Assembly (NCBI GenBank): GCA_964019055.1
Contig: OZ025223.1
Location: forward strand, 4,380,625 to 4,444,624
Length of the DNA stretch: 64,000 bases
Source: Anthopleura xanthogrammica
Lineage: Eukaryota > Cnidaria > Anthozoa > Actiniaria > Actiniidae
Direction of reading: 5' to 3'
Shown here: one piece after another, positions 3,077 through 24,000 of the stretch
Position numbering within the stretch: position 1 is the stretch's first letter
Layout: each line of letters starts with the position of its first letter
Made by a program: the position numbers and the translations under genes
Notes under the pieces: generated by a model
The model's input: the letters and a program-made list of their open reading frames with translations, nothing else
Databases searched by the model: none
What the model was told of the DNA's origin: nothing

Positions 3077-6000
3077 GTAAGAGAAATTCTGTAATTTCAC
3101 TATCATTTTCTCGGAACTTTTCCATGTTTTCAGATATTATGCTCAGGGTCCTGAAGGGGTTGAATGGGAGCTTGGAATTGTAACCACCGTTGCACAGGCG
3201 ACGCGACAGCTGAAAAAATCGCAAAAAAAGTTGCGAGAAATTAAGTGAGTTGAATTTTTCGTGACAAAGTCGCGGACTTGTCTTTGCACTGGCGACGCGA
3301 ATAAAGCTTATCTAGCCAATAAGGTGCAAGAACCAAATCGAGGTTTTGGTTTATTAAAATAGCGGCCTTTATCACCAGAATTTGTCTCTCGTGTAGCAAC
3401 CACAGCGCGTTGGTGATTTTAAAAAATGGCGTCTGTGCAAGCAAAAAATCGCTCGTGTATAGCTGCGGCTTAACTCATTTTGTGCTGGGAAAATCGGATA
3501 AGGGTTACTGGAAATGGAAAGACAGTATCCAAAAATGTGTATGAGATTTATGTTTCCTCTGAGGCGAAAATATAAATATATTAAAAGAAAACACAGAAAT
3601 CCTTTTTTTTGATAAGTATTCTGAGTCACCAAGTTCTATAAAACCAAAATGGCTGTAGTAAAAAACACCTGCCAGTACCCTAACTGTACACCATTAATCT
3701 ATTAAAGGGAAAAATTAGAATTACATGTAGCCCTGGAACCCAAAACCAAAATTAGTATTGATATAAATTTTGAGTTTCTGACTCAGCATTTTTTTGTTAA
3801 CTCGATTAAAAAAAAGTCTGTTAGGTTCTTATAACATTTTTTTTTTCAAACCCAGAAAGGAAAACTTTTGTTTTGATGAAAAAGACACAGACACAACATA
3901 CTGTAAATGTTCTGAATTAATTTGGTTGGGAAATTTAACGAGAATATTTGAATTTCATTTTGAGCTGTGTATAAGGAACGTGTTGTCTGTGCTTCTGTAC
4001 AGCTTCATTCCGTGTTTCAACCTCCACCATTCTATTCTGTTCTCCAAGAGTGCAGCGTGTATTGTGTTTTTGTTAGTAATAATTTACTCGCACTTTAAGG
4101 AAGAAGCGAAGTTTTAATCCTGTCTTTAAGACCAAAAGATTTCAAAATAGTTTTATTATTCATAATGCCCTTAAGGCCTAAGTAAATCACGACCCTAGAT
4201 TTTGTAGTAATTTTAAACTTTTATCAATTTAGCGTTTATACACCTACTTGCAAAAACGTTGTCATACAACATTTGAGCATTTGTAGTTTAGTGGATTAGG
4301 AATAAATTAAAAGTACAAAAGAAAGAGTTCTGCTTCAATGATCTTCTTTTGTACTTTTAATTTATTCCTAATCCACTAAACTACAAATGCTCAAATGTTG
4401 TATGACAATGTTCTTGCAAGTAGGTGTATCTTCATTTCCTTATTAGTATATATTTAATTTTTTTTGCATATATTTAGTTTCCTATAGTTTTTATACTTGT
4501 AAATATTAGCGTAATTCAACCCTGTAGGTTGCAATGCTTTTAGAAATAAACTATCTATCTATCTATCTATCTATCTATCTATCTATCTATCTATCTATCT
4601 ATCTATCTATCTATCTATCTATCTATCTATCTATCTATCTATCTATCTATCTATCTATCTATCTATCTATCTATCTATCTATCTATCTATCTATCTATCT
4701 ATCTATCTATCTATCTATCTATCTAATAAATAAATAAATAAATAAATAATAATAATAATAATAATAATAATAATAATAATAATAATAATAATAATAACAG
4801 TTTATTAGCATAATCCAAACGCAACTTGGCTCTTACAATACTAAATAACTATCTAATGACAAAGACGAACACATAGGAATAGAAAAAAAAAAAACGAACG
4901 AGACTTTGGTCTCTAAAAAAATAGGATTTAGCAGTGGCTCCTCTAAAGAGTAGCTATTCTTCCACTGTTTATATTCCAATTTGAATTTAGAAGTTAATTT
5001 TTACGAAGGGAGCAAAACCGGAGAAAAACCCTCGAAGCACAGCAGAGAACCAACAAACAACTCTACTCACATACGACACCGAAATAAGTGGTGAGGTAGA
5101 ACGTTAGTGCTCTTTTAATTCATACAAAGCGAGAAACGTTTGAGTTCGTTAAGTAATGTTCAGGTTTTATTGGCATATTGTTTTAAATCATACAAAATGA
5201 AAAACGTAATGGTGACGAAGATACCAAAATATGGGAAACAAAATGGCGAAAACGAAAGTCTTAAGTGATCTTCAATAGCTGAAAATTCTCATTATGAAGT
5301 TGTTTTGTTACAAACGTTCATCAGCTGGTAAACTTCTCACGGGACAAGAACGTCTTCCAACTAAAATTCATTTTTTTGGGGGGGATGTTTTTTTTCTCCA
5401 GTTTTCCACAAAACCTAATAGCCCAACACACAAATTCCAACTTTCGATCTGTGAGTTAGCTATGCCTTGACTTTGATGTTGTTTCATCGTTCGATATTAT
5501 TGATGTTAAAAGTGCTTATCAGAAAGATTCCTTAGAAAAACCTAATCGATTAGTGGAAAATCAAACCACACTTGACGACGTTTGTCAAGGTTTTCTCTCA
5601 CAATAGGCTTTTTTCTACTTCAATTAACATCACTTAGAGAAGATATTTATGTTTTAATTGAAGCAGTTGTTAGACCTTTCACGAGACATGAGTGACAAAA
5701 GGTACATAAAATCTGCGTTTCTGCAACCTTGAAGGCAGAGCGTCATACGATAGCAGCAAGAACGGTTAGAACTCACGCCAACAACCTTCCAAACTCTCTC
5801 ATTTATGTTCCTAAATCTTAAAAAATGTTGTCGAACAACATGACTAACTTTTCCTCGAACTTCCCCTTGAACGAGTCGAGGTGTAATTCATCGTCTGGTT
5901 TGTGTAGTCCCGTACAGTCTTGTCCAGGAACAGCCGTTCATGTGGCTTACATTTCGATGATCTGTGTGGTAGGAGTGATTGGGAATATTCTATTACTGTA

Positions 6001-21000: not shown

Positions 21001-24000
21001 GTTTTCTTTTTGGAATCGTTACATAGACAGTTGGAACTCACTTCCACCAGTGGTTTGTGCTGACACTGTAAACAAGTTTAAGAAGAGCCTCAAAGGCCAC
21101 TTATTTCAATAGATCTTTTTAGGCAACGTAGATCGCAGTAGATATGTTCTTATTATTATTATATATTTTAACTATAGCTTTAGTATTTATCTAAATATGT
21201 ATACATATATATATATATAGTATCATCATTTTATTAGTATAATTTTAATGTCCTATGTATTATTTGTATCATTATCTTCTTTCATTTTATATTAGCCTGA
21301 CTTGGGGGTTGATTTTATATGGGGATTTAGTTCCTCTCTGTCGACACCCTTTTTGCACCTTGTCAACTCTTTTCGCAAATAAAGTTGTCATAATTAAATA
21401 AATAAATAAATGAATAAATGAATAAATGAATAAATGAATAAATGAATAAATGAATAAATGAATAAATGAATAAATGAATAAATGAATAAATGAATAAATG
21501 AATAAATGAATAAATGAATAAATGAATGAATGAATGAATGAATGAATGAATGAATGAATGAATGAATGAATGAATGAATGAATGAATGAATGAATGAATG
21601 AATGAATGAATGAATGAATGAATGAATGAATGAATGAATGAATGAATGAATGAATGAATGAATGAATGAATGAATGAATGAATGAATGAATGAATGAATG
21701 AATGAATGAATGAATGAATGAATGAATGAATGAATGAATGAATGAATGAATGAATGAATGAATGAATGAATGAATGAATGAATGAATGAATGAATGAATG
21801 AATGAATAAATAAATGAAAGAACATGCTACTGAGGTTACATTGTACGGTTCAAAGACTACAACATTCGAAATGCACAAGAAAATTAAATAACTTTTTTTT
21901 ATATAGTGGGATACAATTCTGACTTAATTAAAAACGTTTTTGTTAGATCCACAACAAGAAAGCTTGTGCAGGGTTCCCTGGTAAACAAAGGATGGTCACA
22001 AAACATCTGTCAGTAATGTTTGTGTGGCTAAATTTAGTTACTGTCTGTATAGGTGTTCTGGATGTACTCGTTTGGTCAGGCTTTGGATGTTAGAGATATC
22101 GATAGTATACCTGGTAAGTTTTAATTTTTGGTAGCAGGGGCGGATCCAGGATTTTCTTCAGGGAGGGGTGCTGTGCACAAAGTCAACCCAGGACTTTCAA
22201 AGTAGGGGCAAAACGTCCACCCAGGGGGTGTGCGCACCCCCTGCACCCCTTCCATTGGATCCGCCCCTGGATAGAGTAATGTAAATTAAGACACACTTCT
22301 TGTCTTGACTGACCGCCTGTCTTGACTGACCACCTGTCTTGACTGACCACCTGTCTTGACTGACCACCTGTCTTGACTGACCACCTGTCTTGACTGACCA
22401 CCTGTCTTGACTGACCACCATTCTTGACTGACCACCTGTCTAGACTGACCACCTGTCTTGACTGACCACCTGTCTTGACTGACCACCTGTCTTGACTGAC
22501 CACCTGTCTTGACTGACCACCTCTCTTGACTGACCACAGGTCTTTACTTACCACTCTTCTGGACCAATCACTTTTCCTTGTGTAGGTAGCAGTGCCAAGA
22601 GACGTCGAATGGACATTGGTTTGCACATTCTGAGAGAATACCTTGAGAGTAGCACAGAAGGACCTGCAATGATATGTTGGTAAGAGAATTTACACTCGAA
22701 TAGTAATGATATTATTGATGAAGATAATATTGGATGATCATGGTGATGATGATTGTTAATGATTATGTTGATACTGATGGTACTGCTGAAAATAATGGTG
22801 ATTATGGAAGTAATGTTGATCATGATGAGACAGTAATTATGATGCTGGTAAGAATGAAAATGATACCAAATGATGACCATGTTGTTGATGATGATAGTGA
22901 TGATAGTGTTTGATGATTATGATGATCATGATGTTGATGATGGTGGTGATGATAGTGTTTGATGATTATGATGATCATGGTGTTGAAGATGCTGGTGATG
23001 ATAGTGTTTGATGATTATGATGATCATGATGTAGAAGATGATAGTGATGATAGTGTTTGATGATTATGATGATCATGATGTAGAAGATAATGGTGATGAT
23101 AGTGTTTGATGATTATGATGATCATGATGTAGAAGATGATGGTGATGATAGTGTTTGATGATTATGATGATCATGATGTAGAAGATGATGGTGATGATAG
23201 TGTTTGATGATTATGATGATCATGATGTAGAAGATGATGGTGATGATAGTGTTTGATGATTATGATGATCATGATGTAGAAGATGATGGTGATGATAGTG
23301 TTTGATGATTATGATGATCATGATGTAGAAGATGATAGTGATGATAGTGTTTGATGATTATGATGATCATGATGTAGAAGATGATGGTGATGATAGTGTT
23401 TGATGATTATGATGATCATGATGTAGAAGATGATAGTGATGATAGTGTTTGATGATTATGATGATCATGATGTAGAAGATGATGGTGATGATAGTGTTTG
23501 ATGATTATGATGATCATGATGTAGAAGATGATGGTGATGATAGTGTTTGATGATTATGATGATCATGATGTAGAAGATGATGGTGATGATAGTGTTTGAT
23601 GATTATGATGATTGTGGTGTTAAAGATGATGGTGATGATAGTGTTTGATGATTATAATTTATTACAAATGATGTAACGAAATGAAATAGAACAACATACT
23701 GGGTAAAAGCTACACCATTGCAGTGATTCTGTTGCAAGTTTAGATGATGGGCAATGATATTGCACTTGCACCTTATGTTATCTATTGTTTTTTATCTTTT
23801 ATCAGGCTGCAAGTCCTTGCTATCTTGTTTCTCAAGCATCCATCCAGTCTACCTGCTATGGAATGCCTTCCAATGCTCTCAGCACTTCATCATAAACAGG
23901 CTAACTGCAAAAGGTATTGAACTATTTTGAATTGATAACAACTATTATTATAAATTTTACTCAGTATCTCAATTCTGATTGGTTGAGAGCCCTTGGCCAA

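Follow-up and report, generated by a model that had tools for sequence, protein, structure and literature searches.

A tandem array of class A receptor genes nested on the same strand within an intron of ATM in the sea anemone Anthopleura xanthogrammica

A stretch of 64,000 nucleotides from Anthopleura xanthogrammica (contig OZ025223.1, here C20; C20:4380625-4444624, forward strand; hereafter the window, in whose numbering positions are given) raises the question of how a family of G-protein-coupled receptor (GPCR) genes came to lie between two exons of the genome-stability gene ATM, and how receptors and host can be expressed from one strand. The window was analyzed together with the genome in which it lies (290 Mb in 125 contigs). 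Five single-exon receptor frames of 343–365 codons, all open and all on the strand of ATM, occupy one intron of the host. The explanation that we favor, at a probability of about 0.7, is that a piece the size of one receptor coding sequence (CDS) landed in this intron, grew in tandem and gave rise to independent short genes, with ATM being spliced normally. In outline, the CDS of a single-exon class A receptor, from the same stock as a second, inverted array upstream of ATM, would have been inserted once into a phase-0 intron in the orientation of the host; tandem duplication, with conversion between the units, would then have raised the number of copies to five.

The intron is delimited by exon 3 (3013–3076), which ends with ...LAADVFHQ in phase 0 at the donor GTAAGA, and exon 4 (22053–22113), which is preceded by the acceptor CTGTCTGTATAG, entered in phase 0 and left in phase 1; between them, the host intron (3077–22052, plus strand, GT...AG, phase 0) measures 18,976 bp. 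Exon 4, spanning 61 nt, is too short to have given a match of its own in the search with the ATM protein of Porites lobata, and its assignment is based on splice sites, phase and a spliced alignment. In the latter, the spliced ATM exons align with the Porites protein over 236 residues (43%) unbroken across the exon 3/exon 4 junction, whose residues are contiguous in Porites ATM. Among 14 candidate exons in 3077–22586 that are open, phase-compatible, 40–120 nt long and followed by a donor GT[AG]AG, that at 22053–22113 scores 22 against the corresponding Porites segment, with the runner-up at -5. The motif AGGTNTTYTGG, one copy of which stands at 22051, has three copies over the two strands of the window against 0.32 expected. 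A 474-aa query made of ATM exons gave 18 matches genome-wide, 11 of them in the window locus at 71–100% identity and the other seven at 32–58% on contigs C3, C18 and C21; the ATM orthologue in the window is thus single-copy and distinct from other PIKKs. Because the exon splice sites, their phase, the Porites alignment and the single copy of ATM all agree, the host intron of 18,976 bp is taken as real, and its limits, together with the in-phase continuity of ...LAADVFHQ and VFWMYSFGQ, are to the base those given in a preliminary description of this DNA.

Within these limits, copies A1 (CDS 5825–6853, open frame 5822–6853, 342 aa), A2 (CDS 9574–10602, open frame 9571–10602), A4 (CDS 16246–17274, open frame 16243–17274) and A5 (CDS 19670–20698, open frame 19667–20698) are complete and start at a common ATG, and their CDSs lie entirely between the donor at 3077 and the acceptor at 22052. 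The third, A3 (open frame 12432–13529), has lost the equivalent of ~5062–5862 of A1, that is, the upstream region, the ATG and the first codons, and has no ATG ahead of its receptor part; the complete receptors of the array thus number four, and A3, as a copy deleted at its 5' end, is unlikely to yield a normal receptor. The preliminary description was right in nesting the receptors on the same strand inside the ATM intron, and its count of five units holds for the open frames, but only four of them are complete. The units, all on the plus strand, are spaced 2.9–3.8 kb apart. Pfam 7tm_1 was scored in copies 1 and 3, at 59.8 and 56.9 bits (gathering cut-off, 30.5), and the DRY motif is present. 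In A1 and the relatives read, with positions placed by eye, position 2.50 seems to be N and position 7.49 L (LPxxY), in place of the D and N usual at these sodium-site residues. The nearest solved structures are the neuromedin-U, galanin, chemokine, somatostatin and opioid receptors and rhodopsins, all with weak scores (best E 3e-8). The protein search gave two relatives, an unnamed protein (65%) and, closer, one from the sea anemone Actinia tenebrosa that is annotated "neuropeptide receptor 15-like, partial" (79%, with 79% of the query covered); with ATM at 52% identity to that of Porites (in the best local alignment, which covers 58% of the query), the label "coral" in the preliminary description is doubtful. 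An AATG-type repeat of 426 bp (21397–21822) closes the right end of the array, near the exon 4 acceptor.

A1 is preceded by a 769-bp 5' flank (5062–5830, plus strand), a candidate promoter, of which the matches listed genome-wide contain four near full-length copies, all within the ATM intron (A1, A2 and A4, 99–100%; A5, 90%), A3 being the unit without one; the other genomic matches listed are pieces of only 31–113 bp. It is most likely that each complete unit is an independent short gene, which would start in its own upstream stretch of ~0.8 kb and end at a downstream poly(A) signal, while ATM transcription would run through the array and the 19-kb intron would be spliced out normally. One part of this flank resembles, by eye, a minisatellite in the ATM intron preceding exon 2 (988–2166, 20.7 copies of a 57-bp unit), and this minisatellite-like part has short dispersed matches genome-wide.

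A different source of receptor mRNA would be the ATM pre-mRNA itself, with receptors released by intron processing or spliced as hybrids to exon 3 and hence dependent on ATM transcription. The shared strand and the phase-0 donor of exon 3 are in keeping with this view, and a hybrid is formally open to the promoterless A3, which has AGs in phase 0, one where its frame starts (12431) and another at 12515, although the pyrimidine tracts there are poor. In A1, A2, A4 and A5, on the other hand, stop-AAA-ATG stands directly at the start of the frame, so that reading from any upstream exon is stopped before the native ATG, which shuts out hybrids using it; furthermore, the receptors of the upstream array described below lie outside ATM and therefore cannot originate from its pre-mRNA. 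Release from the host transcript thus appears highly improbable, and we infer that the complete units have promoters and poly(A) sites of their own.

At the 3' side, the first AATAAA follows the stop codon by 622 to 680 nt in all five units. In A1 it lies (7475) in a transposon-derived part of the unit (7114–7527, plus strand), which combines a match to the 3' end of a long interspersed nuclear element (LINE; 7114–7360) with an element dispersed over dozens of genomic places (7344–7527), the latter containing the signal; in A5 a LINE reverse-transcriptase-like frame ends ~270 nt ahead of it. A related LINE copy on contig C1 has RVT_1 upstream in the same orientation. The idea that all poly(A) signals of the units are transposon-borne is weakened by an ATTAAA at +136 or +137 past the stop in A2–A5 (4/5 units), outside the transposon remnants. 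Over the entire intron, AATAAA occurs 53 times in sense against 25 in antisense, and ATTAAA 17 against 22 times; the sense excess of AATAAA proves little because many copies lie in simple repeats.

Members of the receptor family also occur outside ATM: a second and larger array (array B; C20:4307429-4348452, minus strand), inverted relative to the first, is located 32–73 kb upstream of the window start, and among the matches listed for A1 genome-wide, nine rows fall in array B, at eight places. Array B is composed of B0, five units with open frames that encode one identical protein, B3, which is in two pieces with stops, and B7, which is partial with a stop. Units B1–B6 are identical over 1,029 compared bases in 15 of 15 pairs, and the array aligned with itself reveals a repeat of ~5.96 kb that is 99.4% identical over 33.6 kb, so close a likeness that array B probably represents a very recent or strongly homogenized amplification. 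More distant paralogues (67–72%) are found among the matches listed on C1 (with a TAA inside the match), on C13 and at C20:6686150 (partial). A position of array B inside ATM is ruled out: the ATM exons begin at ~C20:4375.8 kb, and protein kinase exons (RSK-like by eye; one exon tested) and an EF-hand frame separate them from array B, which accordingly lies outside ATM.

With such closely similar repeats, it might be supposed that the array belongs elsewhere and has been misplaced between the ATM exons, near-identical repeats being generally known as a source of assembly errors and a sister array being present on the same contig. This appears extremely unlikely: the 5' flank of the units occurs, among the matches listed, in the ATM intron only, the flanks of the units vary between copies and differ from those of array B, and the array is bordered on either side by single-copy ATM exons, collinear within a contig of 10 Mb.

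The relation between the two arrays bears directly on the origin of the nested one. In their CDSs, 91.6–94.3% of bases are identical between A and B, with synonymous divergence (dS) of 0.091 for A1–B1 and 0.109 for A1–B0, but the homology extends only from 6 nt before the common ATG to ~13–16 nt past the stop. Beyond these limits, flanks of 400 nt reach local scores near chance in all eight comparisons (A1 and A5 against B0 and B1, each side; z -1.3 to 2.4), as against z 80–108 in the control pairs A1–A2 and A1–A5 and, for B0–B1, z 90 upstream (98%) and 28 downstream (90% over 203 nt). The upstream flanks are 98–99% alike within each array; farther downstream, B0 and B1 are unlike (365 differences in 719 positions). 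At a dS of ~0.1, an alignment should still be recoverable for flanks that share descent, and the pattern suggests either that a CDS-sized piece was inserted or that conversion has acted on the CDS alone. Seeding of the intronic array by one CDS-sized copy, followed by tandem duplication, is the most likely course, with a single landing and the direction of copying presumed; the intronic copies group as one (support 84).

The main rival is that arrays A and B are old paralogues, which split long ago and whose flanks diverged, with gene conversion between the inverted arrays keeping the CDSs alike. The CDS-only homology fits this account equally well, and local patches are found in its favor: five neighboring sites (652–671) are shared by A5 and B0 only, and seven sites by A1 and B1 only. 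In addition, B0 and B1 are 99.3% identical upstream (11 differences in 1,484) and 94.2% identical in the CDS (59 in 1,011); since the upstream parts are more alike than the CDSs, a CDS is replaced independently of its flanks in some cases. A run test on A1, A2, A5, B0 and B1 (111 variable sites, 5000 permutations, p uncorrected for the number of pairs) detected, however, no significant run in any of the six A–B pairs (p 0.052 to 0.81), as opposed to all three pairs within A (p 0.0004 to 0.023), and at 22 of the 41 sites that set A1 apart from A2, A1 has the base of neither B0 nor B1. Conversion between the arrays is hence set aside as the main cause on the outcome of the run test and kept as a rival, on the whole an unlikely but serious one.

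If a CDS-sized copy did land, it may have been a retroposed founder, that is, a receptor mRNA reverse-transcribed and inserted by the LINE machinery. This special form of the favored explanation would account for the CDS-limited homology and for the LINE 3' end downstream in the same orientation, and in A1 a 9-bp direct repeat, AAAAAATGT, stands directly outside both homology ends. A 9-mer common to random stretches arises in 0.6% of trials within the unit and in 1.4% within the intron; as a target-site duplication, the repeat is suggestive, no more. Counting against retroposition are the shortness and A-richness of the repeat, the lack of a clear poly(A) tail in the sequence and the end of the homology ~13–16 nt past the stop, which leaves less than a usual 3' untranslated region. 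Moreover, the receptor members read are all single-exon frames, so that intron loss cannot be scored. We regard retroposition as a tentative proposal, possible but below even odds.

Growth within the intron has left traces. A2 and A4 differ at one of 2,193 aligned bases and at none of 1,014 compared CDS bases, in line with the recent expansion asserted in the preliminary description, and every duplication lengthens the ATM primary transcript, as was also stated there. A5 differs from A2 at 2 of 896 positions between -300 and +600 against 44 of 1,176 outside (p 3e-9, the tract boundaries having been picked after the difference profile was viewed), and this tract looks like conversion within array A. 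Between A1 and A2, it is the CDS that is the more divergent (4.1% against 1.7% in the flanks, p 7e-4), with 32 of the 42 CDS differences at 500–900. As to constraint, the ratio of nonsynonymous to synonymous divergence (dN/dS) stays under 1 in each of the nine pairs computed with A1 (0.44–0.81), being 0.54 against the C1 paralogue (Fisher p 0.0005 on truncated counts).

Several observations weigh against the explanation proposed here. Support for the intronic group falls to 74 and 48 when the two halves of the CDS are taken separately, and CDS-only homology alone cannot separate insertion from CDS-limited conversion. The dN/dS values of 0.44–0.81 denote weak constraint, the C1 paralogue entering this comparison carries the TAA inside its match, 42 differences between A1 and A2 arise by chance without a stop in 15% of simulations, and A3 is evidence that units also decay. 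The array could be neutral debris.

Whether the array affects its host was raised in the preliminary description as a concern over possible interference with ATM splicing, which is reasonable. PMC3192792 reports that nested genes can cause host intron retention, exonization and cryptic polyadenylation. A transcriptional coupling can be imagined, in which ATM polymerase would silence the receptor promoters, sense poly(A) signals, some of them transposon-derived, would shorten some ATM transcripts, copy number would tune the kinase dose, and crossing over between arrays A and B would invert the 5' end of ATM; we consider this chain improbable.

Residues 28–3001 of Porites lobata ATM match in order, with gaps, on the plus strand between window positions -4787 and 60638. 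The first ATM exon of the window (1–123) corresponds to human residues from ~276 on, its start lying upstream of the window or not being fixed, and has a GC donor at 124 (GCAAGT). It is followed by exons 2 (2356–2429) and 3 and, beyond the array, by exons 4, 5 (22586–22679), 6 (23806–23913, its start set by the acceptor TTATCAG) and 7 (24965–25163), all on the plus strand; splice sites are present for all seven. The kinase and FATC exons (56571–60638, plus strand) end the matched gene. A later ATM intron contains a young-looking DNA transposon (27945–29712), in which 487-bp inverted repeats, 98.8% identical, flank a DDE_3 transposase frame (28525–29199).

The nested arrangement is worth comparing with known systems. 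Nested genes make up ~6% of fly, 2.1% of worm and 0.5% of human genes according to PMC3786989, and the description of the locus as unusual is thus overstated for nesting itself, although a growing same-strand receptor array within ATM does form a variant of it. Among human nested genes, 63% are on the strand opposite to the host and ~41% are single-exon, the latter figure being cited from other work (PMC3192792). As in the case of 2mit within Drosophila timeless2 (PMC3786989), a complete gene resides in the intron of an unrelated host that is likewise tied to chromosome stability; 2mit is, however, one gene on the opposite strand, whereas here a growing array of five is on the same strand. The tandem odorant-receptor arrays of ants (PMC12393541) are similar in that related receptors stand in a row and transcription crosses, or here would cross, the units; there, readthrough starts in the receptor genes, whereas the upstream promoter here would be that of ATM. 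Nematostella has over 1000 GPCR genes (PMC11087051), and the present receptors resemble the cnidarian class A expansions in Pfam family (7tm_1) and in being expanded. No title on nesting in ATM or on receptor arrays in introns was found among the matches listed in a literature search. The array in ATM is an unusually clear, though not unprecedented, variant of a known nested arrangement.

The locus is a clean natural experiment on whether a gene for genome stability puts up with a same-strand array that grows inside one of its introns; individuals can be compared for the number of copies in the array, the length of the intron and the inverted sister copies upstream. If a CDS-sized piece did land in ATM, the receptor family would have spread into a host gene by a route beyond ordinary tandem duplication.

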